This document shows, one piece after another, positions 10,101 to 26,889 of a DNA stretch of 26,889 nt; position 1 is the stretch's first letter; every line of letters starts with the position of its first letter. The translations under genes were made by a program, and so were the position numbers. Under the pieces are notes generated by a model that did not search any database, was not told the DNA's origin, and saw nothing but the letters and a program-made list of their open reading frames with translations. The DNA lies in the IMG/VR virus record IMGVR_UViG_3300007363_000083, positions 1 to 26,889 of that record; one strand, written 5' to 3'. This DNA comes from a virus.

Positions 10101-13100
10101 CTCGAAGGCGACCAAGATTTAGTATCATATGGCTTGATTGGTTTCCGCCCGCGGGAATATATGACAGCGTTGAATCTCAGCGATGTTAGTCAAGTTAATC
10201 TATATCAAGAGTTTATCAAAGACAAAGGCACTATCCGTAGTGTTCAAGTGATTGGTAATGCCCGCACAGGAAAAGAAACTGCTGACTACAGCCTATATGA
10301 AAACTGGGCGGTACTCAGAGGTACTTACGGGGCCAATGCTAATCGTAGCTTTATCGAATTACGGTTAAACGAAGCAAAACTTTTATCAGATCCGTCGGTG
10401 GTTCAAGTTGTTCAAGTTGGACAAACCAGTCAAGCAGACCAAACAATTTTATTACAAGACCTGTGGCGTCAGAGTTATAAGATCCCCAACACTGATATTT
10501 TTACCACAACGTTAGTTCCAATTCAGGACTCGTCACTGCCCAGTGCTGGTTATGTTAATATTGACGATGTTGATATTACAGTATTTTCTCTAGACGGACA
10601 ACTTAATCTTGCGCCCGGGGTAATTGATACCATTGGTGTTGGAACAACAATTTGGGCAGCAAAAGTCAATGCTTACGATTGGAATGTTTATCGTTGTAAC
10701 CGAGTTAACGGCTATGTTGAGTCTGTTTCCAGCAACTTAAATTCAACCAGTTATGTGACCTTTAGTCAACAGCACGGCCTAACAGTTCATGACATCATTG
10801 TTATTCGATTCTTCGACTCTTCTGTTGATGGTGTTTATCGAGTGTTATCGATCCCAGCAGCCAACGCTGTTGTGATAGAATTGCCTTTAAACAGAAGTCT
10901 TGTAGGCAGCGGCGTGGCACTGGTATTAAAAACCATGCGTGTAAACCAGGCCAGCGATGTTATTAATTTAACTTATGCCAACAGTCTAATTGCCGGCTCT
11001 CGTGCCTGGGTCGACGACAATGGTGCTGGACTCTGGACAGTATTAGAAAAACAAACACCATTTTCTCAATCAGCCGTTGAGGCTTTGCCCCTGGCATTGC
11101 CGATTGAACAATCACAATTTGGTGCCAGTATCAGCCAAGGCAGCAATAACATCATAGCGGTAGTAGGAGCTCCAGGGTATAGATATACTAGCATTTCGCC
11201 AGTTGTTGGCGCAGTATATCCTTATATTAGAGACAATTCTAACCAATACACAGAAACAACCTTGTTAAATCTTGGAGCCACCGACACCTTGGGCTATGGT
11301 AATGCAGTAGACGTTGGCAATCAAGTTTGGATTGCTGCTGGTGCTAGTGCTTCAAATAGCGGCATGGGTTATACTGGTGTAATTTATCGCGCAGAAAACA
11401 GTAATGCGTTTGAACAAAGACAATTATTAGTAGTTGACAATGCCTCGGATGAATTTGGATATTCAGTATCAGTCAGCAAAGATGAGCGTTGGATGTTTGT
11501 TGGTGCTCCAGGAAACAATAAAGTTTATGCATTTGCTCGTCGAGACATTGAAGATCAATATGTAAAATATACTACCACTGGCACTACTGCAATTTATTCT
11601 TTTGCCGATCAAATTGAAATTGATCCAGGCGAGGACGAACAAGTTGCTGTTGTTTATAATAATTCTTTATTAATTCCGGCAATAGATTATTCTGTTACCG
11701 GCACCAGTGTTGTTTTAACCACAGTTCCGCCTGCTGGGCAGACATTAATTATTCAACGTAAACAAGCACAACAGTTAGACAAAAAAACCTATTACAACAT
11801 TAGTTCTAACTCCACATCTGGCTCAGGAACAGATGCTACATTTACCGTTACCAACACACGAGGCGAGTATCTTGCCACTGTAGTTGACGCCGGATCAGGT
11901 TATGCAGTTAGCGACACACTGACATTTAATGGAGCCGCCCTGGGCACAGACTATTCAGAACCCAGTAGTCCAACAACACCGGCTAACAATCTTGTGTTAA
12001 CAGTGACAGATGTTGACGCTTTTGGTGGAATATTGTCATTTACCACCAGCGGTTCAGGCATCGACAACAACGACACTTTCCCAGTGGATCCATACATCTA
12101 CGGTCTTGTTGATCGTTGGTCAGTGTCAGTTACTGTTGATGGCGCACTGCAACGACCATTCATAGACTATGATTTTGACACCGTTGGACCAAATGCCAAT
12201 AAAATTGTGTTTAATGTTCTTCCCGATCCAGGTGCTAATATTGTAGTGACTGCCAGGACCCAATTTACTCTAGTGGATACTCTTGAGGTACCTGGTATTG
12301 ATTCAGATGCAAGATTTGGACAATCTGTATCTCAATCCGGCAACGGTCGAATGATATTGATTGGTGCCTCCAATGACGATTCGGACACAGTCAACGACAG
12401 TGGCTCCGTTTATGTATTTGACCGCGGAACAATCAAGTATATCGTTGACAATACCAGCGAAGATACATATCCATTGCCCACTGGATTTATTGAACCAATT
12501 GCAGTAACAGTCAACGGGGAATATCTAACAAATTCTGCACAATATATCAACGGAGAATTTTCAGTAGTTGGTACCGATGTGGTATTGAGTAGTTCCGTTG
12601 CATTGAACATCGGCGATGTAATTGAGATTGAAAATAATATTTTTACACAGGTACAAAAAATATCTGCCGCTGCGCCAATTGCTCAAGCACAGTATGGTGC
12701 AGCCACTGAATTGTGTCCAACAAATTGCAGCTTGTATGTCGGCGCACCAACTGACGGCACAGTATATTCGGCAGCCGGCTCAGTTGAACGCAATGTTAAT
12801 CAGTCTAGACTGTTTGGTGTAATAACCTCGACAAATGCTAATCCAACGTTGACCGCTGGAGACACTATTAGAATTAATAATCAATTAGTAGAAGTCCCAA
12901 CCACCGCAGTTGCAAATCTCAGTACCGCAATTAATTCTTCGGGAATTCCAAATGTAACTTCAAGCGTAGTTGATGGGCTATTGACTATCAGTGTAATTAA
13001 CCTTGAGGCCGCAACCGAATTTGACCGGCTGCAGGTATTGCCAGGATCTGGTACCGCTTTTGATGATCTGGGATTTGATACTTTTGTTTATACGCAGACA

Positions 13101-16100
13101 ATTACCAGCCCTAGCCCAGTTGTAAGTGCAAACTTTGGCGCTTCCTTGTCCATCTCTTCGGATGCCGCTACATTAATTGTTGGCGCACCTAGAGGAAATC
13201 TCTATGAGCCAGTGACCTTTGACGACAATACTACTATATTTGACGATAGCAGCACAAATTTTGAATCTATCCAGATTCAATCTGGTGCAGTATACTCCTT
13301 TGATTTCTTACCAAGTGCAAATGGTTCAATTACCAACGCAGGCAAGTTTGCGTTTGGCCAACAGATTTATAGTTCATCCACACTGAGTCTTGATCAATGG
13401 GGTGCAGCAGTAAGTTATGTTTCGGGACGACTACTGGTTGGCGCCACCAACAGCAATTTTGACAGTGTGTCAAATTCAGGAAGTGTTTCCATATTAGAAA
13501 ACACAACCAATAGGCCTGCTTGGTATCCAATACACGTTCAAACACCGGTTGCTGACGTTTCACTGTTTAATTCAGTGTTTATGTACAACAAATTGCAGTC
13601 CAGTCAAACACATTTCTTTGACTTTATTAATCCATTGCAGGGAAAGATTCTTGGCGCTGCAAGACAAAACATCGATTACATTGGATCAGATGATCCAGCA
13701 AAATATAATACTGGACCAGTTAACAACAATGGCAATTTCTGGGGCCAAGAACACATTGGCCAAATTTGGTGGGACATAAGCTCAGTGAGATTTATTGATC
13801 CCAGTCAAGATGATCTGGTCTACGCAAGCCGTCGTTGGGCTCAGACATTCCCGGGCAGCAGGATTGAAATATATCAGTGGATTGAAAGTGATGTTCCTCC
13901 AGCCCAGTATGCTGGACCTGGTGCCCCACTGTCAGCGACAAGTTTTACTCATACTTCATCATTGAATCAACAGGGATTTTTTGTCACACGCTACTATTTC
14001 TGGGCAACTGGCATAGATTCGATCAATACCAATGCTGGCAAAACTCTCAGCACAACAGGCATAGCCAGGTATATTGAAAATCCACGCAGCTCGGGTATTC
14101 CTTATGTTGCCCCACTGAATGCAAATACTGTGGCAATCTATAATGGACTTGAGTTTTTAAGTGCGTCTGACACAATTTTACATATCAACTATGATAGAGA
14201 GTATACTGACAACAACATTCATACCGAGTATGAATTAATTGCACAAGATAAACCTGATAGCTTTTTAAGTGCCGGCCTGTATCGTAAACTGCAAGATTCT
14301 TTCTGTGGTGTTAACTCTGATGGTGCAGCAGTTCCAGATACGTCATTAAGTCCAGCCGAACGCTATGGCGTACAGTTCCGCCCAAGACAAAGTATGTTTG
14401 TCGACCGGTACACAGCACTTGAAAATTATTTGACCTACGCCAATGGTATTCTTAAAACTTATCCAACAGTTGAGAATAAAACTTTTATATTATTAAACAG
14501 TTCAGAGCCAGAACCAACAGTGGCCAGCGGAGAATGGAACCAGCGTGTTGCAAACCTTCAGGAACTAAGCTATCAAGATTTATATGAAGTTCCACTAGGC
14601 TACAAATACCTGGTGGTAACCGACAGCAGCAACGACGGACTCTGGACAATTTATACCGTAATACAAGATTTATCCTTGTTAGGCGGTCAACGAACAACCG
14701 AATTAACTCGTGTTCAGAATTATGACACAAGAAAATTCTGGACTCATATTGATTGGTATGCCCCAGGATATAACAGTTCCGTTATTCCTGTAAATGAAGT
14801 GGCCAACTATGCTGATCTGGCCACCATCTACAGCATCACTCCTGTGGGCGCCAGCGTTAAAGTTACCGCAAACGCACAGGGAAAATTTGAAATTTATATT
14901 CGAACTGACCTTGGTTGGGACAGAGTTGGACTACAGGATGGAACCATTGAATTCAGTGAGCAATTATGGAATTACAGCGTCGGACGCTATGGATTCGACG
15001 TTGAGGTCTTTGATGCACAGTATTTTGACGCTGAGCCAGTGATCGAAACTCGTAAAATTATTCAGGCCATCAACGAAGAATTGTTCATTGACGATCTTGC
15101 TATCAATCGTAATCAAGCATTAATCTTGATGTTTAACTACATCTTAAGCGAGTTCCAAGCACCCGAGTGGCTAACTAAGACCAGTTTGATTGATGTTAAT
15201 CATAACATTCGCGAGCTGTTGCCGTTCCAGGTCTTCCGCCAGGATAACCAAGAGTTTGTGCTGGACTACATTCAGGAAGTTAAACCCTACCACGTACAAA
15301 TACGTGAGTTTAATTTGATCTATAACGGCCAAGACCAATATCCAGGTCTGCTGACTGACTTTGATAACCCAAGTTACTATAATCGAGAATTTGAAATACC
15401 ACAGTATGTCAGTCCCGTTTTGCTGCCCTATACAAAAAGTACCGCAGTAGGCACAGGAACTCCCAGCAGCATAGCTGACACCGCTGCTGATGCCGAAGTT
15501 TGGACACTATCTCCTTGGTCACAGTGGTTTGAAAACTATCTTCTCAGCATAGACGATGTGGTCATTATCGACGGCGGCAGTGGTTACATTGAGCCACCGA
15601 CAGTTGAAGTCACTGGTACCTGTGTTACACCTGCAGAAATGACTGCCATTATTAACAGTGCAGGGAAAGTTGTTGGCATAAACATTGTCAATCCAGGTAG
15701 TGGATATTCAACCACTGCTGTTATTACATTTGTTGGTGGCAGCGGCGTTGGTGCTAGAGCCTATGCTGTAATGAGTAATGCCCTGGTAAGATCCATTAAG
15801 ACCACAATCAAATACGACAGGTATCAATATCGTTCTACTATTGTTGATTGGGAATCCAATGTCAGTTATAGTGCCGGCACACAGGTAAGATACAATGACC
15901 GTGTGTGGTCAGCCGATTCTACAGTACAAACTATAGAATTTGATCCTGATGATTGGACATTAGTACCAGCAGACTCCTTGAGCGGTATAGATCGAACACA
16001 GGGATTTTATACGCCAACAGTTAACATGCCTGGCCTTCAACTGCCCTTGTTAATTGATGGGCTCGAATATCCTGGGGTCCAGGTACTTGGTGTTGATTAT

Positions 16101-18371
16101 AATCAAAATACTGGCTACGACATCGGCAACTACGATATCAATCCATTTGATAATATCAGTTATGGTCCAGAAGGACGTCCTACTTACGATCCAGGCATTC
16201 TGGATGCTGTTTATGAAAGCTCATATCTAGACCTATTCCTTGGTACCAGACCAACAGATATTAATGTTGATGGCGGAGCCTACGTTGACACTTATTCTAG
16301 TTTTGCTCCTGAGGAATTAATACCTGGTGCCGAATTTGACACACTGGACATGCGCATCTATACCCGTCCTGGTGCAGACTGGGCGGTTAATGGTCACGGT
16401 TTTCCAACTTATAATCAATCAGTGGAAATCAATTCTTTACCACAAACTTATGAGTTTAGCAGTTGGTATGAGCATGTTCCTTATTTGGTATCTATATCGT
16501 TACTCAACGTCAACTATCAAGTTGATTTAATTGAAAATGTTGACTATACTGTTGACTGGGCTGCAAAAACCTTTACTATAACATCGGGCTGTAACATAGG
16601 CGATTATGTTGCTGGTACTGCCTACGGTGTTGGCGGCGGCAATCAGTTGTACAGGCAAAGAGTTCTGGGCGCTGACATAGTTGATGATGAGATTGTTATA
16701 CCTGTTGCTTATAGTCAAATTCAAGAGGTTGATGCCTGGGTTAACGGACAATTGTACAGCGGAGTAACATTCACTGCCGGTGACGATAATACCACAGTTG
16801 TTTCTTTTGCCACAACATTTACCTCAACTGATCTTGTTACCATTTATGTACTTGGCCCAACCACAATAGATTCAACAACAGTTGACTACAGTTGGAGTAC
16901 ACCAACTACTCAATATATCATTGCCGACGGGTCGACTGTGCTTTTTGCGCTAGACAATAGCCTAGAATATACCAACCCGGCCAATATGATTGTTACAATC
17001 AATGGTGTTCGTGCTAGAACAGCAGCCGGCGTTGAATATTTGGCCGATGGTAGCTCAGGATACTTGTTGCCCAATCGTTTGGGATTTACACAGGCATTTA
17101 TTGCTGATAATGAGGTACTAGTCTACATCAACGACGTCCCACAAATACTGGGCGTCGACTATACAGTTGAACCATTTGAAACCGAAGACACTAGAGAAGT
17201 TTTATTTTCCACTACTCCCGCTACAGGCGAAAGAATTTTAATTGCTGTCACCACTAACACACAGGCTAGAATCACTGGCGGCAACAGTTTATTCATTGAT
17301 ACTACACAGGGCTACGTGCCCATTGCCGGAGATATTATTGCTGTTACCACCTGGAATGATACTCGCCAGCAAGATATTGTTACCACTGTTTACGTTGGGC
17401 CCGTGACATCAGGGGCCACAGTAACAGAAGGTTACGATGATACTGATTTTGATGCAGCAGATCTTAACTTTGAGCCTGGAAGTTTTGACTACGCCGAAGG
17501 TATAATTGTTACCAACAACGATTTGTTCTTGTCAAGACCCACTACAAACCCCAATAGGCTTGTGGTTACACGAAATGGGTTTATTTTAAACTATGGTAGC
17601 GATTATACCATTGTCAATGATGAAATTGTTTTGGCCACTGGAATTATCAATGCTCTTGATGTAATAATGATTACACAATTTACTGACAGTCTAGTACCCG
17701 AAGCTATGGCATTCCGCATATTCCAAGACATGCGTGGAGTTCAGGCCACTTACCGTATAACACCCAACACCACTACGGTATTGGCACAACCATTGGGAAT
17801 AACCGATGATGTGATTTACGTTGAAAATGCTGCTAATCTCGATGACCCTGATGTTGCTGCTAATATTTGGGGAGTATTGACCATTAACGGTGAACGCATT
17901 ATGTATCGCGAAAAAGATAACAGTGCCAATACTGTCAGCAGCCTACGTCGCGGTACAGCAGGAACTGCCGTTGCCGAACACAATTTGGGATCCTATGTCT
18001 ACGCAATGGGTCGTGGTGAAATTATGCCCGCAGAATTCCAAAATTACATCGACAGTAACACTTTCTTGGGCGATGGCTCTACAGTAAACTTTGAAGCAAC
18101 CAATATCTATTTTGATGGCGGAGATAGTTCCTTGCCTACAGAATCGGTTGAAGTTTGGGTAGGCGGTACTAGAATAACCAGCGGATACACGGTCACTGGT
18201 GCAGGCCCGGTTACAGTAGAATTTGATACAGCACCAGCAGCTGGTGTACAAGTTGTTATTTTGGTACGTCGCGGAGTAAATTGGTATCAACCCGGACCAA
18301 GTACTCCCAGCAATGGCGTGGCACTACAAGATACCAATACCCTAGCTGCAAGGTTCTTGAGGGGGCTATAA
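4194..18371 (+). CDS. Giant modular virion/baseplate protein (4,725 aa) in the gp7 position
   Basis: One uninterrupted frame with start ATG directly after the gene 6 stop and GGAG at 4182-4185. The N-terminus (residues 1-145, with YYTWDPFVDFDKFVNFSQYY) and several inner blocks resemble, from memory, the very large structural proteins that follow gp6 in marine T4-like phages. Modules in order: a cupredoxin-like tandem at about 155-360; a Trp/Tyr-rich core around 1040-1700; a CBM5/12-like motif at about 1896-1939; seven FG-GAP repeats at 2309-3100; a block with GQIWWDISSVRFID near 3190; a block with LIDVNHNIRELLPFQVFRQD near 3660-3680; GSGY repeats at 3790-3863; a second CBM5/12-like motif at 3878-3928; a LRRGTAGT domain at about 4531-4614; and repeated DYTV-type beta modules to the C-terminus. 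It has no signal peptide or membrane segment. It probably forms part of the baseplate periphery or adsorption apparatus. Sequence identity to T4 gp7 is not evident, so no symbol is given. Confidence 0.85.
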   Translation: MARVRTVDFLPEIFQTSTNRQFLAATLDQLVQEPAFTKIQGFVGRRVGPGVNPNDEYVKESTAVRTNYQLEPGVVLKKYNTNQVEDAITYPGITDAVDLAGGFTNNANRLYTSDYYTWDPFVDFDKFVNFSQYYWLPAGPDAVDVFSGSVPLTDTFTVTRENGVYTFSGVAGDNPALTLVRGGSYQFNVAQNDKETVNFRVSTAGTSAFVIDYENNPTLTLVRGNTYVFTLVLKGPYPFYIKTDPSPGTTNQYNSGVTNNGAITGTVRFTVPQDAPDTLYYSTAVQPNMKGTFNIVNATPGTGPGFWIQVDPGVDGKLIATPNISGRDVLGVVNNGEDLGTVTFNVPLATAQNFYYSLTNINSQLPNNGVDLITSLKFNQINNIFVDQFLLENPTGIDGIVNLDGKTIVFLEQDPDPDTGGWLATSQFDPLPNVGNVVSTTGSFDTTLFDQTTVVPTDQRYSVWLANYVTAEGGGQYIQLTSVLPVSNLEKFSILSGTVNSSTQWFKNSSGVFEKIPLLTAAKSVLYYQDGTDPEIFGLIKLVDQDNSDQIDVNEIIGKKNYVSPNGVTFTNGLKVTFIGNVTPSTYLNNSYYVEGVGTAIKLLPVQNFVTPETYTQSASIPYDSTAYDVGNFDASLNQPLIPEYLTINRASPDLNPWTRSNRWFHVDVINASAEYNNTVAVLDNNFRGKRPILEYRAGTRLIDFGTQGKSPVDVIDFSTTDALSTVNGSTGYSVDGYTFINGSRVIFAADLNAQVRNKIYQVEFINIDSAEPIINLTVATDGLALPDQAVVCLSGAVQQGKSFYFDGVNWLATQQKTKTNQAPLFDVYDLAGVSFKDPIKYPSTNFVGSRLFSYATGPGNADVVLGFPLRYLSLTNVGDIVFDNNLYTDTFTYTRDSVSSTESISQGYVKQYSNRVDFIKEIGWQPAITKSLVRQQFRFTYQGRPLLLDIPVSGVNSLPALQIYVAGIFVEPSDYTYIVSGDTTTITITNIDELAGFGSVVEVEALSSKVSKVAFYQVPVNLENNPLNQNSPSFTLGTIRSHYQTIGRNLKDLQGPINGANNSRDLGNIIPYGTNILQQSSPMTLAGYFMRSMKYNLFNSLEYNSREYEKFKARLLDTATRNDYTNYTNNIPAMLTAIVSDINIGKIENNSFYWSDMLPASSVYKQTTTTITPISDNEFDLSTTYDFTSSNYKGLLVYLNNRILTIDKDYTVAVDAPRLTITTALTTGDVVIIREYATTYGNFVPNTPTKLGLYPAYQPKIYLDTNYVTPQLVIQGHDGSLTMAFGDFRDDLLLEFETRIFNNLKIKSEIPLPMTEVVPGQFRTTDYSLAEINQILNKDFLSWIGWNKLNYQEQDYNVSNEFTWNYSAAGNKLSEPFETPLPVAAWRGLYQWFYDTTSPNTTPWEMLGFSIKPSWWNEVYGDAPYTSDNLVLWDDLAAGKVADPLGAYYLPEYARPSLTQVIPTGTEGQLLSPFDSVVGSYDSGQFQKSWVFGDGGPVEYSWRKSSSYPFAIMRMLALTRPAEFFSLFADRDLYKFDAEFNQYLYNNRYRLDANGVEVYGDGLSKASYINWIVDYNQQTGVNSTVNLTEDLASLDVRLCYRMAGFTDKQYLKIYTEKSSPNSQNASLLLPDESYNLLLYKNQPFERINYSSVIFQVVDGGYAVYGYSITNPYFEILVSKTYGTRIPIDGGGRVVSAPNQYTDQVVKIPYGYVFTNETMAVDFLLSYGALLTTQGLIFDSRENGYQLDWRQMAREFLYWAEQGWEPGAVINLNPTAYSLSAIKAQAIVDSVVAQTPENSILDQNRTTLPVRDLVVDRLDNVFRIRSLSQQTISYLELKYTSYESMVVLDNVSIFNDLIYNPTTGARQSRINIAATISADWNGQVDAQGFILNNDKTVEEWQPNRKYAKGEIVLYKNNYWSAQTIVQPKVLFDYADWVKSDYTKIQRGLLQNLPNFSNQLQNSYDTVTANLEGDQDLVSYGLIGFRPREYMTALNLSDVSQVNLYQEFIKDKGTIRSVQVIGNARTGKETADYSLYENWAVLRGTYGANANRSFIELRLNEAKLLSDPSVVQVVQVGQTSQADQTILLQDLWRQSYKIPNTDIFTTTLVPIQDSSLPSAGYVNIDDVDITVFSLDGQLNLAPGVIDTIGVGTTIWAAKVNAYDWNVYRCNRVNGYVESVSSNLNSTSYVTFSQQHGLTVHDIIVIRFFDSSVDGVYRVLSIPAANAVVIELPLNRSLVGSGVALVLKTMRVNQASDVINLTYANSLIAGSRAWVDDNGAGLWTVLEKQTPFSQSAVEALPLALPIEQSQFGASISQGSNNIIAVVGAPGYRYTSISPVVGAVYPYIRDNSNQYTETTLLNLGATDTLGYGNAVDVGNQVWIAAGASASNSGMGYTGVIYRAENSNAFEQRQLLVVDNASDEFGYSVSVSKDERWMFVGAPGNNKVYAFARRDIEDQYVKYTTTGTTAIYSFADQIEIDPGEDEQVAVVYNNSLLIPAIDYSVTGTSVVLTTVPPAGQTLIIQRKQAQQLDKKTYYNISSNSTSGSGTDATFTVTNTRGEYLATVVDAGSGYAVSDTLTFNGAALGTDYSEPSSPTTPANNLVLTVTDVDAFGGILSFTTSGSGIDNNDTFPVDPYIYGLVDRWSVSVTVDGALQRPFIDYDFDTVGPNANKIVFNVLPDPGANIVVTARTQFTLVDTLEVPGIDSDARFGQSVSQSGNGRMILIGASNDDSDTVNDSGSVYVFDRGTIKYIVDNTSEDTYPLPTGFIEPIAVTVNGEYLTNSAQYINGEFSVVGTDVVLSSSVALNIGDVIEIENNIFTQVQKISAAAPIAQAQYGAATELCPTNCSLYVGAPTDGTVYSAAGSVERNVNQSRLFGVITSTNANPTLTAGDTIRINNQLVEVPTTAVANLSTAINSSGIPNVTSSVVDGLLTISVINLEAATEFDRLQVLPGSGTAFDDLGFDTFVYTQTITSPSPVVSANFGASLSISSDAATLIVGAPRGNLYEPVTFDDNTTIFDDSSTNFESIQIQSGAVYSFDFLPSANGSITNAGKFAFGQQIYSSSTLSLDQWGAAVSYVSGRLLVGATNSNFDSVSNSGSVSILENTTNRPAWYPIHVQTPVADVSLFNSVFMYNKLQSSQTHFFDFINPLQGKILGAARQNIDYIGSDDPAKYNTGPVNNNGNFWGQEHIGQIWWDISSVRFIDPSQDDLVYASRRWAQTFPGSRIEIYQWIESDVPPAQYAGPGAPLSATSFTHTSSLNQQGFFVTRYYFWATGIDSINTNAGKTLSTTGIARYIENPRSSGIPYVAPLNANTVAIYNGLEFLSASDTILHINYDREYTDNNIHTEYELIAQDKPDSFLSAGLYRKLQDSFCGVNSDGAAVPDTSLSPAERYGVQFRPRQSMFVDRYTALENYLTYANGILKTYPTVENKTFILLNSSEPEPTVASGEWNQRVANLQELSYQDLYEVPLGYKYLVVTDSSNDGLWTIYTVIQDLSLLGGQRTTELTRVQNYDTRKFWTHIDWYAPGYNSSVIPVNEVANYADLATIYSITPVGASVKVTANAQGKFEIYIRTDLGWDRVGLQDGTIEFSEQLWNYSVGRYGFDVEVFDAQYFDAEPVIETRKIIQAINEELFIDDLAINRNQALILMFNYILSEFQAPEWLTKTSLIDVNHNIRELLPFQVFRQDNQEFVLDYIQEVKPYHVQIREFNLIYNGQDQYPGLLTDFDNPSYYNREFEIPQYVSPVLLPYTKSTAVGTGTPSSIADTAADAEVWTLSPWSQWFENYLLSIDDVVIIDGGSGYIEPPTVEVTGTCVTPAEMTAIINSAGKVVGINIVNPGSGYSTTAVITFVGGSGVGARAYAVMSNALVRSIKTTIKYDRYQYRSTIVDWESNVSYSAGTQVRYNDRVWSADSTVQTIEFDPDDWTLVPADSLSGIDRTQGFYTPTVNMPGLQLPLLIDGLEYPGVQVLGVDYNQNTGYDIGNYDINPFDNISYGPEGRPTYDPGILDAVYESSYLDLFLGTRPTDINVDGGAYVDTYSSFAPEELIPGAEFDTLDMRIYTRPGADWAVNGHGFPTYNQSVEINSLPQTYEFSSWYEHVPYLVSISLLNVNYQVDLIENVDYTVDWAAKTFTITSGCNIGDYVAGTAYGVGGGNQLYRQRVLGADIVDDEIVIPVAYSQIQEVDAWVNGQLYSGVTFTAGDDNTTVVSFATTFTSTDLVTIYVLGPTTIDSTTVDYSWSTPTTQYIIADGSTVLFALDNSLEYTNPANMIVTINGVRARTAAGVEYLADGSSGYLLPNRLGFTQAFIADNEVLVYINDVPQILGVDYTVEPFETEDTREVLFSTTPATGERILIAVTTNTQARITGGNSLFIDTTQGYVPIAGDIIAVTTWNDTRQQDIVTTVYVGPVTSGATVTEGYDDTDFDAADLNFEPGSFDYAEGIIVTNNDLFLSRPTTNPNRLVVTRNGFILNYGSDYTIVNDEIVLATGIINALDVIMITQFTDSLVPEAMAFRIFQDMRGVQATYRITPNTTTVLAQPLGITDDVIYVENAANLDDPDVAANIWGVLTINGERIMYREKDNSANTVSSLRRGTAGTAVAEHNLGSYVYAMGRGEIMPAEFQNYIDSNTFLGDGSTVNFEATNIYFDGGDSSLPTESVEVWVGGTRITSGYTVTGAGPVTVEFDTAPAAGVQVVILVRRGVNWYQPGPSTPSNGVALQDTNTLAARFLRGL
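4656..5263 (+). repeat. Tandem degenerate cupredoxin-like modules in the giant protein
   Basis: Residues 155-360 hold three related stretches. NPALTLVRGGSYQFNV is followed by NPTLTLVRGNTYVFTL, then GVTNNGAITGTVRFTVPQDA with LYYSTAVQPNMKGTFNI. A third partial copy has GVVNNGEDLGTVTFNVPLAT with NFYY. I recognise the pattern 'LTLxRGNTYxF ... VTNNG...GTxxFTVPxDAPxxLYY' from cupredoxin-like domains common in marine phage structural proteins. The usual His and Cys copper ligands are replaced here (PYPFYIKT; TAVQPNMKG), so the fold is probably structural only. Confidence 0.5.
9880..10011 (+). other. CBM5/12-like (chitin-binding type 3-like) motif, copy 1
   Basis: Residues 1896-1939 of the giant protein read EEWQPNRKYAKGEIVLY, then NNYWSAQ, then YADWVK. 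This fits the small carbohydrate-binding module pattern 'W....Y..G..V.Y....W.A......P....W'. Such modules bind polysaccharide with surface aromatics. Binding is inferred from the pattern only. Confidence 0.5.
11118..13500 (+). repeat. Seven FG-GAP repeats: predicted integrin-like beta-propeller
   Basis: Seven copies of the pattern '(F/Y/W)G.(S/A)(V/I/L)......(L/V/I).VGA(P/S/T)' are visible. They begin near 11118 (FGASISQG, VVGAPG), 11292 (GYGNAVDV, AAGAS), 11454 (FGYSVSVS, FVGAPG), 12314 (FGQSVSQS, LIGAS), 12690 (YGAATELC, YVGAPT), 13132 (FGASLSIS, IVGAPR) and 13395 (WGAAVSYV, LVGAT). Most continue to a strand such as SGSVYVFDR or SGAVYSFDF. Seven is the blade number of integrin-type propellers. 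Two DYTV-type beta modules and a GSGY segment are inserted between blades 3 and 4, and another DYTV-type module between blades 4 and 5. Confidence 0.7.
15826..15975 (+). other. CBM5/12-like motif, copy 2
   Basis: Residues 3878-3928 of the giant protein read VDWESNVSYSAGTQVRYND, RVWSAD, then FDPDDWTLVP. This is the same aromatic and glycine spacing as copy 1 near 9880. It directly follows a GSGY-type repeat pair (15560-15775: GGSGYIEPPTVEVTG and NPGSGYSTTAVITFVGG), another accessory module typical of phage adhesins. Confidence 0.5.
16486..18276 (+). repeat. C-terminal array of DYTV-type beta-sandwich modules
   Basis: The module pattern is 'V.V.NG.......DYTV......V.F...P..GD.V.I'. Copies here lie near 16486 (NVDYTVDW), 16728 (VNGQLYSGVTF), 17115 (YINDVPQILGVDYTVEP), 17560 (VTRNGFILNYGSDYTIV) and 18148 (VWVGGTRITSGYTVTG). 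Five more lie upstream, near 7078, 7780, 11644, 12124 and 12499. The array is interrupted by a domain at 17786-18035 with VLTINGERIMYRE and LRRGTAGT, which is common in large phage structural proteins. Confidence 0.6.
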
Positions 18372-19195: not shown

Positions 19196-20488
19196 ATGGC
19201 ATATACAATTAATCTTACTGATGGGGCAATTTTTGCTACTATTGCAGATGGCACCATCAATACCTCTAGCTCAATGACGCTAGTGGGCAAAAACTACGCC
19301 GGCTATGGCGAGTTTTTAGATGAAAATTTTATACACCTGTTAGAAAATTCATCTAATACCACTGCACCAGGAGCACCACTAACCGGACAGATTTGGTGGG
19401 ATTCGGGCAACGGTATTCTTAATGTGTATAGTGGCACCGCTTGGAAACGTATCGGTGGCGCAACTGCCAGTGCCAGTGCTCCTAGTGGCGCAACCAGCGA
19501 GCAAGGCGACCTGTGGTATGACTCTACCAATGCTCAATTAAAAGTTTATACAGGCGCAGCCTGGTTATTAGTAGGACCTTCTTTTACCGCCGGCACTGGG
19601 GTTACTGGCGCTATCGTTGATACCATTGTTGATAATGTTGCCGTCAGCCACGTGGTAATTAAATTCTATGTCGAAGACAGCGTGATTGCAATCATGTCAA
19701 AAGACGCTGCATTTACTCCCCAGGCTGCCATTCCTGGTTGGGGTTCGGGACAGATGGTCAGCCCAGGTTTAACCATGTCCACAGGCAGCGCCAGCTACCT
19801 GTTCCAAGGCACTGCCACAGACAGCCAATTACTCGGCGGCGTTGCTGCCAGCGGATTTTTAAGCTCTACCAGTAACGACACAACATCTGGCACCTTAGGC
19901 ATTCTTAATGATTCTGGACTAACTGTTGGAGTAGATCAGGATGCAAAATTAAGTGTCAGCGGCGCAGGTGTTGTTACACTGGCCAATCAAACAAGCAACC
20001 AAAATTTAACATTTTCTGTTAATATTGGTGGAACACCAACTACCGCATTGACCATTTACGGCGCCAACGGTACTGTGGCTGGCAACCAAGTTAATGCCAA
20101 CTACGCTGACGTTGCCGAGCGGTTTGCAGCCGACGAAATTTTAGAAGCAGGCACAGTGGTTGAACTAGGCGGCACGGCAGAAATTACCAAAGTTGCCAGC
20201 GATCTAAGTGATAAAGTATTTGGGGTCATAAGTACAAGGGCAGCATATCTTATGAATAGCAATGCTGGCGGCAACGAGACGCACCCCCCAGTTGCTATGA
20301 CAGGTCGAGTACCTGTTAAAGTTATTGGACAGATTAGCAAAGGCGATCGACTTGTTTCAGCCGGAAATGGTTTAGCTAGATCTGCACAACCAGGAGAAGC
20401 AACAGCTTTCAATGTTATTGGACGCAGTTTAGAGTCTAAACTTACTGACGCAGAAGGCACAGTTGAAGCCATAGTAACAATTAAATAA
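19196..20488 (+). CDS. Tail fibre-like protein with C-terminal autoprocessing-type domain
   Basis: A 430-residue fibre protein. The N-terminal 130 residues carry two copies of the phage fibre repeat, GQIWWDSGNGILNVYSGTAW and GDLWYDSTNAQLKVYTGAAW. The middle (130-300) is Gly/Ser/Thr-rich beta structure. The C-terminus from NYADVAERFAADEILEAGTV (about 300) through HPPVAMTGRVPVKVIGQISK and GDRLVSAG resembles the Peptidase G2-type C-terminal domain of phage fibres and neck appendages, which can act as an intramolecular chaperone removed after trimerisation. I did not identify the catalytic residues. The protein is likely a trimeric adhesin or whisker-type fibre on the virion. GACGGAG at 19181-19187 is the ribosome binding site. 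Confidence 0.8.
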   Translation: MAYTINLTDGAIFATIADGTINTSSSMTLVGKNYAGYGEFLDENFIHLLENSSNTTAPGAPLTGQIWWDSGNGILNVYSGTAWKRIGGATASASAPSGATSEQGDLWYDSTNAQLKVYTGAAWLLVGPSFTAGTGVTGAIVDTIVDNVAVSHVVIKFYVEDSVIAIMSKDAAFTPQAAIPGWGSGQMVSPGLTMSTGSASYLFQGTATDSQLLGGVAASGFLSSTSNDTTSGTLGILNDSGLTVGVDQDAKLSVSGAGVVTLANQTSNQNLTFSVNIGGTPTTALTIYGANGTVAGNQVNANYADVAERFAADEILEAGTVVELGGTAEITKVASDLSDKVFGVISTRAAYLMNSNAGGNETHPPVAMTGRVPVKVIGQISKGDRLVSAGNGLARSAQPGEATAFNVIGRSLESKLTDAEGTVEAIVTIK

Positions 20489-21661: not shown

Positions 21662-21967
21662 ATGAACACAGAAAATCTTGTTGCTCACGCACGAGCACGA
21701 TTTGATCACGAAGCCGCACGTAGACTATTAAAAGAAAAATATCAGGCCAAGATGATGTTTGCCTACAATGGTGGTATGTTTCGCGCAGGCCCGGAACTAC
21801 AATCCATGCTATTGACCTGTCCCGACAGCCAGGCTGTTATTCTAGATCTATACGACAACCCTGTGCAGGTCGATGTACAAGAGTTAATGGGGTCAAGCCA
21901 ACAACGCTGGCAGGAGCAGATGAATGCCTGGCTAGTAGAATTTGAACAAACAAGCCGTAAGCGATGA
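21662..21967 (+). CDS. Conserved small phage protein of unknown function (101 aa)
   Basis: A mostly helical, soluble protein with a basic, Ala/Arg-rich N-terminus (LVAHARARFDHEAARRLLKE), a central AYNGGMFRAGPELQSMLL, a hydrophobic strand (AVILDLYDNPVQVDV) and a Trp/Gln-containing C-terminal helix (QQRWQEQMNAWLVEFEQ). From memory, proteins of this length and pattern occur in marine T4-like phages with no assigned role. No catalytic motif is visible. There is no Shine-Dalgarno sequence; a -10-like TATACT ends 6 bases before the ATG. Its stop overlaps the next start as ATGA, so it is co-translated with the glycosyltransferase-like gene that follows. Confidence 0.75.
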   Translation: MNTENLVAHARARFDHEAARRLLKEKYQAKMMFAYNGGMFRAGPELQSMLLTCPDSQAVILDLYDNPVQVDVQELMGSSQQRWQEQMNAWLVEFEQTSRKR

Positions 21968-22773
21968 CCACTGGGGCAGTAATTTTTGCTTTCAACAATG
22001 AAAAAACTGACTACGTTAAAATGGCCGCGTGGTCGGCTAAACGAATACGTCGTTGGCTTGACATACCAACAACTGTAATCACTGATTCTCTAGACCCAGA
22101 ATTAAGCAATCAGTTTGATCGGGTCATACATGCAGCACCCGAAACTGGCGGCTCACGCTACTTTGAGGACTATGCCGGATCTGTATCCTGGCACAATGCC
22201 GGAAGGACCAGCGCCTACAACTTATCACCCTATGATCAAACCTTGGTCCTTGATTCAGACTATGTTGTTTGCAGCAACCAACTTCAAGCAATTATAAATG
22301 CACCTCAGGATTTTCTAGCACATAGAACAGCACTGGATGCGACTCGTCCAGATGAACCTTTTCTTGACACATTTGGCCGCAACCGGTTTCCCATGTGGTG
22401 GGCCACAGTGATGATGTTTCGTAAAAGCATCACCGCACAGTATATTTTTGACAGCATGACCATGATCAAGGCAAACTATCAACACTATAGAGATTTATAC
22501 GGCATCACAGAACGAAATTATCGCAACGATTATGCATTGAGCATTGCGCTAGGCCTGGTGTCGGGACATACTTTACAGGTTGACAGTATTCCCTGGCCCA
22601 TGATCAGTGTCTTACCCAGTGCTGAATTAGAAAAAAATTCTGCGGGCAATAATGAAATCTGGACTATAAAATATCCTGGGGCCGATGGCAAACCTAAAAC
22701 CATTGGCATCGCCGGCCAAGACTTTCATGCCATGGGCAAACGACATTTAGAGGCAGCAATTGAAACCCATTGA
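21964..22773 (+). CDS. GT-A-fold glycosyltransferase-like protein
   Basis: A 269-residue protein with the layout of nucleotide-sugar transferases. It has an N-terminal beta-alpha start (TTGAVIFAFNNEKTDYVKMA), a strand followed by ITDS near 38-42, and a DSD metal-binding motif at residues 97-99 within TLVLDSDYVV. An acidic stretch, NDYALSIAL, has its Asp at 189. A C-terminal HAMGKRH could supply a further metal or phosphate ligand, as in GT8-type enzymes. It probably transfers a sugar to virion proteins, modified DNA or host surface glycans; the acceptor cannot be read from the sequence. It overlaps the genes on both sides (4 and 14 bases), so the cluster is tightly coupled. Confidence 0.65.
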   Translation: MTTGAVIFAFNNEKTDYVKMAAWSAKRIRRWLDIPTTVITDSLDPELSNQFDRVIHAAPETGGSRYFEDYAGSVSWHNAGRTSAYNLSPYDQTLVLDSDYVVCSNQLQAIINAPQDFLAHRTALDATRPDEPFLDTFGRNRFPMWWATVMMFRKSITAQYIFDSMTMIKANYQHYRDLYGITERNYRNDYALSIALGLVSGHTLQVDSIPWPMISVLPSAELEKNSAGNNEIWTIKYPGADGKPKTIGIAGQDFHAMGKRHLEAAIETH

Positions 22774-23536
22774 AGAACGCGGTTATATAATTCCTGCATT
22801 TAATGTTGGATCAGTTGACTATGTTGACTGTGCTAGAGCCCTAGCCAAAAGTCTTTTGGCACAGCACCCACAGGCACGAATATGCCTGCTGACCAATGAT
22901 GCCACGGCTGCTGATCCCAGCCTGTTTGCCTACACTCACACAGTAGAAGATATCAACACAGTCAATCCCTACGCCAACGATTGGCTAGTTTTCCATCAAA
23001 CCCCATTTAGGCAAACAATTAAATTAGAAGCCGACATGTTGGTGGCCACTGCTGTGGATCATTGGTGGACCCTATTTGAACATAGAGACGTTGTGGTCAG
23101 TCAAGGCTGTAGAAATTTTTATGATCAACAGGCCACCAGCAGAAAGTATCGACAAATTTTTGATGCTAATAATTTGCCCGATGTATACAATGCTGTCACC
23201 TATTGGCGGCTAAGTAAAACAGCACAGGATTTTTTTAACACAGTTAGAACAATCTTTACCAACTGGGAAAGTTACAAGACTTTATTAAAGTTTCCCGAAG
23301 ACGTTCCCAGCACTGATATAGTCTATGCCATGGCTGCACAGATCGTGGGTGTTGATCAAGTGACATTGCCACAGGGCCTTGGACCACAGATAGTTCATAT
23401 GAAGCCAGGCATTGGACCATACACGGCTGCCAAATGGACCAATGAACTGATCTGGGAAACTGATCCTTTTAGAATACAAACAGTGGCACAGTGGGGATTT
23501 GTGCATTTAAATGTCAAGGACTGGTCGAATGAATGA
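22760..23536 (+). CDS. Second glycosyltransferase-like protein, with an altered metal motif
   Basis: A 258-residue protein that starts at TTG 22760, supported by AGAGG at 22749-22753, 6 bases upstream; no ATG fits better. Its plan parallels the preceding protein: N-terminal GYIIPAFNVGSVDYVDCARA, then ICLLTNDA, then a strand ending KLEADMLVA. There an EAD (residues 90-92) stands where the DxD motif is expected. Later features are YNAVTYWRLSKTAQDFF, DVPSTDIVYAMAAQ and IVHMKPGIG near the C-terminus. The two genes are probably diverged members of one GT-A-like family. Metal binding through a single Asp, or loss of activity, is possible. It overlaps the next gene by 8 bases. Confidence 0.6.
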   Translation: MKPIEERGYIIPAFNVGSVDYVDCARALAKSLLAQHPQARICLLTNDATAADPSLFAYTHTVEDINTVNPYANDWLVFHQTPFRQTIKLEADMLVATAVDHWWTLFEHRDVVVSQGCRNFYDQQATSRKYRQIFDANNLPDVYNAVTYWRLSKTAQDFFNTVRTIFTNWESYKTLLKFPEDVPSTDIVYAMAAQIVGVDQVTLPQGLGPQIVHMKPGIGPYTAAKWTNELIWETDPFRIQTVAQWGFVHLNVKDWSNE

Positions 23537-23876
23537 AACAACCAAAAACTTTTGGGAGGTCTGGAATAACCTAGAACCGTACCAGCCGCCTGTGATATTC
23601 TGGCGACTCTACTATGATGATCGTGGTTTTCCTTTGTTTTATACGCAAGAAGATAAATCAGGTAACTACATTGATGTAACTCCCGAACAATATCAACGTG
23701 CCAGTATGCGTGTTCGAGTTCGAAACGGTCAGTTAATTGAACTTGATTCAATTACAGTAAAAAAATTAACACCAACGGCAACAGGAACACCGTGTCATCC
23801 CAGGGACGTTAGTGTAGTAGTTCACAACTCACAAGAACATACCAAATGGAGTAATCGTGTCAATGAATCAAATTGA
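23529..23876 (+). CDS. Conserved small phage protein of unknown function (115 aa)
   Basis: I place the start at ATG 23529 because AAGGA (23516-23520) lies 8 bases before it. The upstream in-frame ATG at 23511 would add six residues and has no such site. The protein is Trp/Tyr-rich at the N-terminus (FWEVWNNLEPYQPPVIFWRL), followed by YYDDRGFPLFYTQED, GNYIDVTPEQY and a basic C-terminal half with VKKLTPTATGTPCHPRDVSV. From memory this matches a small protein family found beside glycosyltransferase-like genes in marine T4-like phages. It shows no catalytic motif, signal peptide or membrane segment. The C-terminus overlaps the next gene by about 20 bases. Confidence 0.7.
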   Translation: MNETTKNFWEVWNNLEPYQPPVIFWRLYYDDRGFPLFYTQEDKSGNYIDVTPEQYQRASMRVRVRNGQLIELDSITVKKLTPTATGTPCHPRDVSVVVHNSQEHTKWSNRVNESN

Positions 23877-24789
23877 TGTAGCAGATTTAGATGTTGTATT
23901 TTTAACTTTCGACGAGCCTCGAAAAGAAGAATTTTGGGTTAAAATTAAAAATATGGTGCCCTGGGCACGAAGAGTTGATGGAGTCAAGGGCAGCGATGCA
24001 GCACATAAGGCCGCAGCCGCAGCCAGCGACACTGAAAGATTTATTCTTATTGATGGCGATAATCTTCCAAGCCCGGAATTTTTTAATCAAACTTTGACCT
24101 TTCCCAGTGCTGACTATGAGCATGCAGTGTTCCGTTGGCGTGCCCGTAATCACATCAATGGGCTAATGTATGGCAACGGTGGATTAAGTTCTTGGACACG
24201 AGAATTTGTCAACAACATGCGGACACACGAAAATACCGACGGATCAGTAGAGACACAGGTAGAATTTTGTTTTAATCCTTTGTATTGGGCTATGCACGAC
24301 TGCTATTCTACCACCTACCCCAACGGATCGGCGTTTCACGCCTGGCGTGCGGGGTTTAGGGAAGGTGTTAAAATGTGTTTGAATCGTGGTGCAAAACCAT
24401 CGGTTGCAGAGTTCCAAAGCCGTGTACACAGTAAAAACCTAGACAACTTGACCATCTGGCACAATGTTGGCGCAGATGTAGACTATGGTGAGTGGGCTAT
24501 TGCTGGCTCGCGAATGGGCACTTATATGACCATGCTAACACAGTGGGATCATACACAAGTACAAGACTTTGATGCACTGGAAAAACTATGGGCCACTGTG
24601 GAAAATGAGCAACCAAGGCTAGTGGCAAATCGTGTGGCCACTGAACTCAACACACAGCTGGACCTACCCATGATTATATTAGAAAGCGAACAGTCGGCGT
24701 TTTTTAAACAGCACTATAGATCTAACTGGCATAATCAAGGCATTATGATTCGAGAAATAGATGTGATCAGACAACAAGAAGGTTGGTAA
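23857..24789 (+). CDS. Glycosyltransferase-like protein with DGD motif (310 aa)
   Basis: The protein starts DVVFLTFDEPRKEEFW, then RRVDGVKGSDAAHKAAAAA, then RFILIDGDNLPSPEFF. Its DGD at residues 66-68 fits the DxD metal motif of GT-A-type folds. The 'VDGVKG...AHKAAA' and 'DGDN' combination is one I recall from proteins occurring in several copies in marine T4-like phages. Later features are HINGLMYGNGGLSSWTREFV, FCFNPLYWAMHDCYST and AFHAWRAGFREGVKM. Start choice: GTG 23857 is 5 bases after GGAG (23848-23851); ATG 23863 is 11 bases after it and equally possible. It is the last gene of the plus-strand chain; its stop is only 9 bases from the stop of the convergent ligase gene, with no visible terminator. 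Confidence 0.65.
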   Translation: MSMNQIDVADLDVVFLTFDEPRKEEFWVKIKNMVPWARRVDGVKGSDAAHKAAAAASDTERFILIDGDNLPSPEFFNQTLTFPSADYEHAVFRWRARNHINGLMYGNGGLSSWTREFVNNMRTHENTDGSVETQVEFCFNPLYWAMHDCYSTTYPNGSAFHAWRAGFREGVKMCLNRGAKPSVAEFQSRVHSKNLDNLTIWHNVGADVDYGEWAIAGSRMGTYMTMLTQWDHTQVQDFDALEKLWATVENEQPRLVANRVATELNTQLDLPMIILESEQSAFFKQHYRSNWHNQGIMIREIDVIRQQEGW

Positions 24790-24798
24790 TTTGTTTGT

Positions 24799-25878
24799 CT
24801 AAAATTGAGTATCTAACCAAGTTCTTGATATCTTTCCCGACGGTGAAAGTGGAATTTCGTTTAGTTGTTGAATAAATGTTGGCCTACAATGTGTTCCGAG
24901 ATTGAGTAAATACTCGATTATATCTTTTGATGTACATTTTCCAACGAACAAACATTTAAGTTGATCTTTGCCAAAGATTGTACAATTAACTAATCCAGGA
25001 ATATTTTTTATTAATTGACTTTCTAGGCTCACTGGATTTATTTTTATACCACGGATATTAATTTGATCTCTGTGCCGTCCTAAAATAGTGTAATAGCCAT
25101 CTCTGTCTCGACTTGCTAAGTCACCCGTATTAAACCAAGTTTTAGAAAAAACACATGAACCTTTGATATATAACTGTCCATCAACAATGTCGGCTTCTAT
25201 GCCATCTGGAAGTCCGACGGTTCCTATTTTTTGTTCCCCCTCTAATGGATTAGTAAAACAGTGACTCAATGCCTCAGTCATACCAAATGCTTCAATGACA
25301 GGAACATTAAACTTTTCTTTTAAGAATGAATAAGTTGAATTTGGCAACGCCGAACTGGCACTACGTATAAATCGTAAATTACTAAAATCAAATTTACCAA
25401 TGATTTTAAGTATATCGGGTATAGCGGTAATAAATGTTGGATTATATTTGGGAATATTTTTAATATCTTTAATGGTGGCATAATGAGTTTCGCACCCAGC
25501 AAGTTGTGTTGCCCAATAAAATCCCTGTCCGTGTGCATGCCATAATGGCATAATACTAACATATCTATCATTGGAAGTTAATTTATAACTATTACAAATG
25601 GTGTGTGCCATTTGCGTAACTTGTTCTTGAGTAAAACTATAAAATTTACTATCTCCGGTTGTTCCTGATGTATACCAAAATAGTTTTTCATTCGGATAAT
25701 CGTTTCCATTACGTGTTACAGTACTTGAATTAGTAATAAGTACAGTATAATCAGAATTATCAAGCAAATATTTTAATCGAGTTTCAGTAGAACCAGGATT
25801 AACAACCATGATACTATAGTTGTTTAGATCGTTGATATAATCCTGTGGATTATCTACACTTAACACAGCCCGTTTCAT
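24799..25878 (-). CDS. Compact AMP-forming acyl/aryl ligase (ANL superfamily)
   Basis: About 359 residues from ATG 25878; TTG 25899 is an alternative start, and neither has a clear ribosome site. ANL core motifs are in order and intact (residues from the ATG): YTSGTTGDSK, the ATP-binding loop, at about 70-79; PLWHAHGQG near 112; EAFGMTEA near 194; WFNTGDLASRDRDGYYTILG near 253-272; GRHRDQINIRG after it; and C-terminal LSPSGKISR with the adenylation lysine near 350. These enzymes activate a carboxylate as acyl-AMP and usually pass it to CoA or a carrier. Typical members are about 500 residues or more. Here roughly the first 60-100 residues are missing: only the 'NPG...RLKYLLDNSDYTVLIT' stretch precedes the ATP loop. 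The gene is distinctly AT-rich and on the opposite strand to its phage neighbours, and ends in TAG. The substrate is unknown. Confidence 0.85.
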   Translation of the reverse strand: MKRAVLSVDNPQDYINDLNNYSIMVVNPGSTETRLKYLLDNSDYTVLITNSSTVTRNGNDYPNEKLFWYTSGTTGDSKFYSFTQEQVTQMAHTICNSYKLTSNDRYVSIMPLWHAHGQGFYWATQLAGCETHYATIKDIKNIPKYNPTFITAIPDILKIIGKFDFSNLRFIRSASSALPNSTYSFLKEKFNVPVIEAFGMTEALSHCFTNPLEGEQKIGTVGLPDGIEADIVDGQLYIKGSCVFSKTWFNTGDLASRDRDGYYTILGRHRDQINIRGIKINPVSLESQLIKNIPGLVNCTIFGKDQLKCLFVGKCTSKDIIEYLLNLGTHCRPTFIQQLNEIPLSPSGKISRTWLDTQF

Positions 25879-25904
25879 TGAGTTACTTATTTGAATCAAC
25901 TTGG

Positions 25905-25932
25905 TTGTATTTTTTAAAAAATCAATTATAAT
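25905..25932 (+). promoter_or_regulatory. AT-rich divergent promoter region (plus-strand -10 shown)
   Basis: A perfect TATAAT at 25927-25932 has a weak -35 TTGTAT (25905-25910) with a 16-base spacer, and a second -10-like TATAAA at 25934-25939. Either would start transcription within a few bases of the ATG at 25945. The 66-base region between the two divergent starts presumably also holds the ligase promoter on the minus strand. Confidence 0.5.
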
Positions 25933-25944
25933 ATATAAACTACA

Positions 25945-26646
25945 ATGAAAATATTAGTTAATGGAGCATCAAATAGTAGAGGTCCGGGCTCCTGGCCCTA
26001 CTATTTACAGTCATCTCTTGGGTGTGAATTAGTAAATTTAGCATTGGGTAATGCCGGCGCCACTTATGTCCACGAAACTACTATCAGCGAATTAAGTCAG
26101 AGAACGTATGATTATGTATTAATCATGTGGCCGACATTTGGTCGTATTGATGTACAAGTATCCAACATCAAAAAATATAAAGATTCAACTCGTACATCGG
26201 TTTACCAGAGCGCACAAAATGATTGGCCAGAAAAAGTAAATCATCCTTTAAATGATCAAGACTATGTACAAAAAAACTGGATTTTTAGTGTAGGGGATAA
26301 TAAAGCCAGTGATAGTACTGGAGAATTTTTAAACAAGTATCATAATATTACAGACCATGCGTTGATATATCGTAACGAAATAATTCGAATTATAAGTACA
26401 CAATCTTTTTTAAAAACTCAAAATATTCCATATTTGTTTATGTTCTGGAAACCCTTTAAGAGATTTCCTAGATATGAATCTTTGTATAATCTAATAGATT
26501 GGAATGATTTTTATCTTGAAGATGATTTGCAATCGATAGGACAACGTAATGGTTGGGTTAAAGATGATAAGTTACACCTTGACCCTCAAGCGCATAAACA
26601 GTATGCATCCCTTTTATTAAACAGATTAAATTTATCTCAACAATGA
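25945..26646 (+). CDS. SGNH/GDSL-like hydrolase or acyltransferase
   Basis: A 233-residue soluble protein with the ends of the SGNH fold. ILVNGASNSRGPGSWP is at about residues 3-18, where NGASNS occupies block I, the position of the GDS nucleophile motif. LALGNAGATYVHE near 33-45 fits block II. The C-terminal DDKLHLDPQAHKQYA near 208-222 matches block V with a D-x-x-H pair. The strand YVLIMWPTFGRIDV near 57-70 sits where block III (GxND) is expected but lacks the GxND Asn. Such enzymes are esterases or O-acyltransferases on lipids or sugars. It has no signal peptide, so it acts in the infected cell. It is divergent from the ligase gene and shares its AT-rich composition, which suggests the two were acquired together. 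Confidence 0.65.
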   Translation: MKILVNGASNSRGPGSWPYYLQSSLGCELVNLALGNAGATYVHETTISELSQRTYDYVLIMWPTFGRIDVQVSNIKKYKDSTRTSVYQSAQNDWPEKVNHPLNDQDYVQKNWIFSVGDNKASDSTGEFLNKYHNITDHALIYRNEIIRIISTQSFLKTQNIPYLFMFWKPFKRFPRYESLYNLIDWNDFYLEDDLQSIGQRNGWVKDDKLHLDPQAHKQYASLLLNRLNLSQQ

Positions 26647-26676: not shown

Positions 26677-26889
26677 ATGATTATTGCCTTTTATCCCGGT
26701 GGCGGAGGAAATCGTTACTATCATTATATCAATGGCCGCAAGGACTTTGATGCAAATACCACCTATGATCATTTGCTGCAAAATCAACATTTTAATTATC
26801 GATATTTAGACAACAACTCTAAGTTAGCAGACCAAGAACTAATTCTAACGCATTGTGTTAATGTTCCATTGTTGCGTCGACTCTTTCCT
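26677..26889 (+). CDS. Partial protein of unknown function (3' end outside window)
   Basis: 71 codons from ATG to the window edge with no stop. The N-terminus MIIAFYPGGGGNRYYHYING has a strand followed by a Gly-rich turn, which resembles the start of a nucleotide-binding fold but lacks the GK(S/T) of a classical P-loop. Later features are YDHLLQNQHFNYRYLD, then ELILTHCVNVPLLRRLFP. The 'strand-PGGGGN ... LTHC.N...(R)LFP' pattern recalls small-molecule transferases such as sulfotransferase-like proteins and uncharacterised marine phage proteins, but I would not assign it. Its base composition is less AT-rich than that of the SGNH gene just before it. There is no Shine-Dalgarno sequence. Confidence 0.6.
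   Translation, partial: MIIAFYPGGGGNRYYHYINGRKDFDANTTYDHLLQNQHFNYRYLDNNSKLADQELILTHCVNVPLLRRLFP

Follow-up and report, generated by a model that had tools for sequence, protein, structure and literature searches.

The DNA analysed here (the window) is an IMG/VR virus sequence of 26,889 bases from a freshwater virus of bacteria. Near its end, two intact open reading frames diverge from one another (24799–25899 on the minus strand and 25945–26646 on the plus strand, with 45 bp between them) and adjoin a run of glycosyltransferase-like genes:

21964–22773, plus strand: glycosyltransferase-like GTa, first copy, with an acidic DSD motif (LVLDSDYVV), placed by synteny
22760–23536, plus strand: glycosyltransferase-like GTa, second copy, matching phrog_1903 (9.9e-9), placed by synteny
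23511–23876, plus strand: c45, a small conserved gene of the fibre/glycosyltransferase locus, placed by synteny
23857–24789, plus strand: glycosyltransferase-like GTb, immediately preceding the ligase within the conserved fibre locus, with a weak match to Pfam Glyco_tranf_2_3 (0.0077)
24799–25878, minus strand: short AMP-forming (ANL) ligase, 359 aa from the conserved ATG, matching Pfam AMP-binding
25900–25944, no strand: intergenic stretch between the divergent ligase and SGNH genes, 45 bp, 15.6% GC
25945–26646, plus strand: SGNH-fold protein, 233 aa, with Ser9, Asp208 and His211
26677–26889, plus strand: start of an open reading frame cut by the contig end, without a relative in any fetched locus

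The first GTa copy gave nothing above the cut-off in a Pfam search, and phrog_1903, matched by the second, is a family of unknown function; GTb is syntenic in related phages (loci L027, L036, L039, L041 and L059–L062). The gp25- and gp6-type baseplate wedge genes of the window support the T4-like phage setting proposed in a preliminary description of this DNA. The window also encodes a virion protein of 4725 aa (4194–18371) with an FG-GAP repeat and a weak chitin-binding-like (CBM_5_12) match; the fibre-like product of 19196–20488 contains an intramolecular-chaperone domain, Peptidase_G2. As that description had stated, the divergent pair is AT-rich: the ligase and SGNH genes each have 33.3% GC (GC3 0.22 and 0.26, respectively), against a mean of 43.6% (s.d. 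2.4, n = 12) for the other window genes (z = −4.2 each). Across 46 loci the mean GC of the ligase is 1.4 points lower than that of neighbouring genes (median z −0.3), so that AT-richness was rejected as a trait of the ligase family and is peculiar to the window copy; SGNH genes are AT-richer in the majority of loci. Around the intergenic region, sigma-70-like sites did not exceed chance (they fell below the shuffled mean), and the T4 late promoter (TATAAATA) was not found in the window.

The ligase frame can be read from a TTG at 25899 (366 aa), and comparison with relatives places the conserved start at an internal ATG at 25878 (MKRA). Its match to Pfam AMP-binding (3.5e-32) begins at profile position 168 of 384, and some 100 residues at the N terminus, the larger part of the canonical region there, are missing relative to ANL enzymes of ~500 aa, a shortness that the preliminary description had not noticed; with the core and C-terminal domain present and a complete N-terminal domain absent, the protein does not have the full two-domain ANL fold. 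The core motifs reported for it hold up, given that the A3, A5, A7, A8 and A10 residues are invariant (YTSGTTGDSK, T201/E202, D253, R268/D271 and K349 are kept in 37/37 aligned relatives with 54–66% identity to the window protein). An AF2 model (pLDDT 86, pTM 0.71) aligned by Foldseek to enzymes of ~500 aa at a TMq of ~0.67–0.71. Among curated NCBIfam models the best was PRK05852, whose score of 127 bits falls below its cut-off (650), and no family model covers the short form.

Relatives of the ligase were found in IMG/VR phage contigs (at least 94, with 54–68% identity among the 80 matches listed). A motif-based scan of 84,980 species with WYTSGTTG and HGQGFYW yielded bacterial matches of at most 25% identity; since neither motif varies among the phage proteins, the scan would probably have picked up any close bacterial member, and a bacterial origin of the ligase was rejected. 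A collection of phage records contained only distant ANL genes (~21–29% identity to the ligase). On the basis of these comparisons the family appears, so far, to be restricted to phages. We found no paper describing it in the open-licence literature, which is weak evidence of absence. The novelty is a new phage-restricted ANL subfamily; phage-encoded modification of surfaces or metabolism is of a known kind.

The product of the divergent gene had been called SGNH-like, correctly: its AF2 model (pLDDT 88.9) has the flavodoxin-like SGNH fold, with Escherichia coli TesA (thioesterase I) as the best Foldseek match in the PDB (E = 7e-6, probability 1.0, TM to target 0.63–0.66), and a profile search also placed TesA first, weakly (0.005). 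A PHROG search of the protein matched nothing, and its one Pfam match, to DUF6071 (0.0069), fell short of the threshold; comparable folds are predicted for proteins of uncultured Caudovirales phages, some of which already carry the name SGNH_hydrolase. S9 (block I) and D208/H211 provide the expected Ser and D-x-x-H (block V), and G38 (the candidate oxyanion-hole Gly of block II) is invariant in A2, with no conserved block III Asn after W62. The catalytic residues are retained or lost jointly, His being kept in 33 of the 34 Ser-bearing proteins with an aligned block V and in none of seven Cys variants (33/1 versus 0/7, Fisher P = 4e-7), which indicates that Ser and His are functional in most members. 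All seven variants with Cys and no His come from ligase loci (L017, L019, L036, L041, L044, L169 and L172). Given that these ligase-linked proteins lack both catalytic residues, hydrolase or transferase activity is not general, and some ligase-linked members must work differently or be inactive.

To describe the gene neighbourhood, 101 ligase loci were clustered into 65 non-redundant loci (L043 and L172 are a single contig, which enters the count twice because it has two ligase copies), and genes at most 3 or 4 positions from the ligase were counted. The ligase–SGNH neighbourhood noted in the window is conserved: an SGNH gene lies near the ligase in 25/65 loci, in several genomic contexts and from more than one SGNH subfamily, and a search from the SGNH side found the ligase in 18/36 loci. 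The other recurrent neighbours encode a mini DegT (27/65), a hexapeptide protein (18/65), TctC (14/65) and an NMO/FabK-like protein (11/65). Profile searches of the PDB identified the mini DegT as a half-size sugar aminotransferase (best solved relatives including perosamine synthetase and WbpE), related the hexapeptide protein to the N-acyltransferases LpxD, PglD and VioB and TctC to Bug receptors, and related the NMO neighbour, a FabK-like flavoenzyme, to FabK and nitronate monooxygenase. Searches from the side of each neighbour found the ligase in 16/18 contigs for the hexapeptide protein and 20/27 for the NMO/FabK-like protein; the link is weaker for TctC (short ligase in 24/80) and weak for the mini DegT (2/80 loci examined), a family of at least 600 relatives in IMG/VR that is common in ligase-less phages. 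The mini DegT (~195 aa), observed in L222–L301 and in ligase loci, has conserved Lys and Asp residues and often lies near GalE and a 2OG-oxygenase-like gene, and on one phage contig a single mini DegT gene sits between two paralogous short ligases (L043:8001–10700). NMO–DegT–hexapeptide islands adjoin DNA polymerase without a ligase in L391 and L396/L404, so that such an island can exist ligase-free. An acyl carrier protein partner was considered and rejected, as the ~80-aa gene often found upstream of the ligase encodes a DUF2061 membrane protein; no carrier-protein gene was recognized adjoining the phage ligase.

SGNH and hexapeptide genes never occur together near a ligase (hexapeptide genes in 0/25 SGNH-bearing versus 18/40 other loci, Fisher P = 3e-5), and at least five switches between them are needed on the ligase tree. 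We read this exclusion, together with the switches, as suggestive that the two proteins perform the same job; in phylogeny-independent pairs, which are too few, the exclusion is not significant alone. Of the genes in question, the window contig, which is cut, carries only the ligase, SGNH and glycosyltransferase-like genes, with no aminotransferase, hexapeptide enzyme or TctC, and it ends 243 bp past the SGNH gene; the pathway is therefore read from relatives.

The preliminary description had proposed horizontal acquisition of ligase and SGNH as one pair, which is contradicted by related phages in which the SGNH gene stands alone in the same locus, in the order fibre–GTa–GTa–c45–GTb–SGNH–GTe–radical SAM (L059–L062 and L192–L195), and by the ligase family not being AT-rich; acquisition as a unit is ruled out by these syntenic ligase-less loci. 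In L027, L036, L039, L041 and L188, TctC and/or the ligase are inserted between GTb and SGNH, and the window ligase occupies the same junction in inverted orientation. The SGNH gene thus resided at this locus first, and the ligase arrived later. When SGNH-only phages were searched for a ligase elsewhere, it was present in one (the L060 contig) and absent from 17 others. The ligase itself is found in at least three unrelated places (the DNA polymerase, FolE/GalE and fibre/glycosyltransferase regions), and its tree requires at least 12 changes of genomic context, indicating that it moves between sites. In freshwater T4-like phages, several radical SAM proteins of ~450 aa also occur in tandem next to fibre genes, with glycosyltransferase-like genes in between (L059–L062, L216, L218, L220, L221 and L327).

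Two kinds of evidence bear on the substrate. Searches with the family profile placed oxalyl-CoA synthetases first among solved relatives (AAE3, 5e-37; grass pea, 7e-36; Pcs60, 2e-32), followed by MenE and malonyl-CoA synthetase, and Foldseek with the AF2 model agreed independently, ranks 1–7 all being oxalyl-CoA synthetases (~1e-27); profile similarity at 20–26% identity is nevertheless insufficient to fix the substrate. The invariant R172 and S175 of the phage ligase align with R286 and S289 of AAE3, the latter of which we take to be an oxalate contact. Di-/tricarboxylate receptors also lie nearby, TctC/Bug being adjacent to the ligase in every locus in which it was counted and DctP occurring in L020, L035 and L056. 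From this kinship and these receptors, we infer that a small polar carboxylate is the likeliest class of substrate, oxalate being merely one candidate.

We consider it about an even chance (roughly 0.5) that a small polar carboxylate is activated by the ligase and ends up on an amino sugar of a surface glycan. The ligase would be a synthetase of acyl-CoA (or acyl-adenylate), shortened at its N terminus and specific to phages, that uses ATP (and CoA) to produce an activated small acyl group, which would be transferred to the amino or hydroxyl group of a sugar bound for a surface glycan (host lipopolysaccharide/O-antigen or a virion glycan). In loci that carry them, the mini DegT aminotransferase would make the amino sugar and the PglD/LpxD-like hexapeptide enzyme would serve as N-acyltransferase; where the locus is of the SGNH type, as in the window, the hexapeptide transferase would be replaced by the SGNH protein, or the latter would trim the product, and the nearby glycosyltransferase-like proteins would put the sugar on the glycan. 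The preliminary suggestion of an acyl group made and attached to glycans survives in part, in that the recurrent neighbours, amino-sugar and acyl-transfer genes, fit it. A bolder version, which we put forward only tentatively, is that freshwater T4-like phages use a reshuffling set of miniature enzymes (the shortened acid ligase, the half-size sugar aminotransferase, a swappable SGNH or hexapeptide acyltransferase and a carboxylate receptor) to make, out of a scavenged small dicarboxylate, a non-acetyl N-acyl amino sugar for display on the infected cell or virion; if true, such a display may, for example, block superinfection or recognition.

Four rivals were ranked, in descending order: carbon scavenging, the SGNH protein as a deacylase, CoA-free amide synthesis and DNA modification. 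Under carbon scavenging, which we regard as unlikely, the phage would help its infected host to import a di- or tricarboxylate from outside and activate it, feeding central metabolism during infection (a TctC/DctP binding protein, the ligase forming the acyl-CoA, and SDR and BKACE for breakdown), with the sugar genes as mere neighbours. The adjacency of TctC and ligase agrees with this, as does the presence of ligase, SDR and BKACE in L020, L032 and L035 (with DctP also in L020 and L035), yet the commonest partners of the ligase are the sugar aminotransferase, N-acyltransferase and SGNH rather than catabolic genes, no transporter membrane subunit was seen among inspected neighbours, and the examined DctP proteins have, by eye, no evident signal peptide. 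Also cited in its favour is a separate phage module, incomplete in some loci (L306, L308, L310, L312 and L313), that combines a full-length ANL ligase, SDR, BKACE, PP-loop ATP pyrophosphatases, TctC and a DctP without an evident signal peptide; this module looks like a small-molecule pathway. Somewhat improbable, too, is that the SGNH protein acts independently of, or opposite to, the ligase, as a thioesterase or glycan deacylase that edits or removes the acyl group, the neighbourhood reflecting a shared hotspot of surface modification. TesA and GDSL esterases as its top structural and profile neighbours, SGNH genes at the same locus without a ligase, and the joint retention or loss of Ser and His are all in line with a hydrolase; the recurrence of the ligase neighbourhood in several contexts and the exclusion of the hexapeptide transferase, which suggests substitution, argue the other way.

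The remaining two alternatives concern the chemistry of the ligase. It is doubtful that the shortened enzyme dispenses with CoA and passes the acyl-adenylate straight to an amine, as does the amide bond synthetase McbA: the missing N-terminal region, an otherwise matching fold with McbA among the Foldseek matches, and the frequent amine-making neighbours are compatible with this route, but every one of the closest relatives is a CoA ligase, conservation is complete in the C-terminal subdomain that holds the A8 hinge and A10 Lys, and neighbouring LpxD/PglD-type enzymes take thioester donors. Very improbable is a role in DNA or nucleobase hypermodification, with the ligase acylating a modified base or DNA-linked sugar, an idea that comes from one context in which genes of the 7-deazaguanine type surround the ligase (FolE, 6-pyruvoyl-tetrahydropterin synthase and a QueE-like protein). 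FolE is found in 6/10 ligase-bearing versus 4/10 ligase-less large records, is absent from two ligase-bearing records (177 and 265 kb) and does not occur near fibre- and polymerase-type ligase loci; 7-deazaguanine DNA modification was rejected because FolE has no clear association with the ligase.

If acylation of surface sugars is correct, lytic phages carry their own acid-activating chemistry for these sugars, beyond glycosyltransferases and acetylases, which would offer a testable route to new sugar decorations and show how small ANL and PLP enzymes can get. Should the glycan link prove wrong, many lake phages would still have an unexplained metabolic input in the form of a conserved carboxylate ligase restricted to phages. 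Among known systems, oxalyl-CoA synthetases (AAE3, grass pea OCS and yeast Pcs60) have RFIRSxS and EA(Y/F)xMTEA...NPL stretches in common with the phage ligase, which differs in its low identity to them (20–26%), in being ~150 residues shorter and phage-restricted, and in having an activity that is only predicted. Virus-encoded long-chain acyl-CoA synthetases, likewise ANL enzymes in viral contigs, have been listed as auxiliary genes for fatty-acid beta-oxidation (PMC10401857); the portions of that article available here do not describe the short ligase family. The phage SGNH protein resembles TesA and SGNH/GDSL esterases in fold, block I Ser and block V D-x-x-H, but it shows no conserved block III Asn, and some relatives have lost Ser and His. 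The pairing of an aminotransferase with a hexapeptide N-acyltransferase (PglE/PglD, VioA/VioB and perosamine synthetase/PerB) is likewise found beside the phage ligase, with the differences that the aminotransferase is half-size, an acid-activating ligase is added and the pair is missing from the window contig. Loci of the Vibrio cholerae O1 tetronate (rfbKLMNO) type employ an AMP ligase to acylate the O-antigen, a likeness in the use of an ANL ligase for amino-sugar acylation, whereas those loci are chromosomal and carrier-protein based. Temperate phages modify the O-antigen through Oac O-acetylation and Gtr glucosylation, with membrane acetyltransferases that use a host donor; the likeness is a phage gene that acylates or glycosylates a host surface polysaccharide, and the difference is that the system proposed here would rely on a soluble activating enzyme and belongs to T4-like phages.
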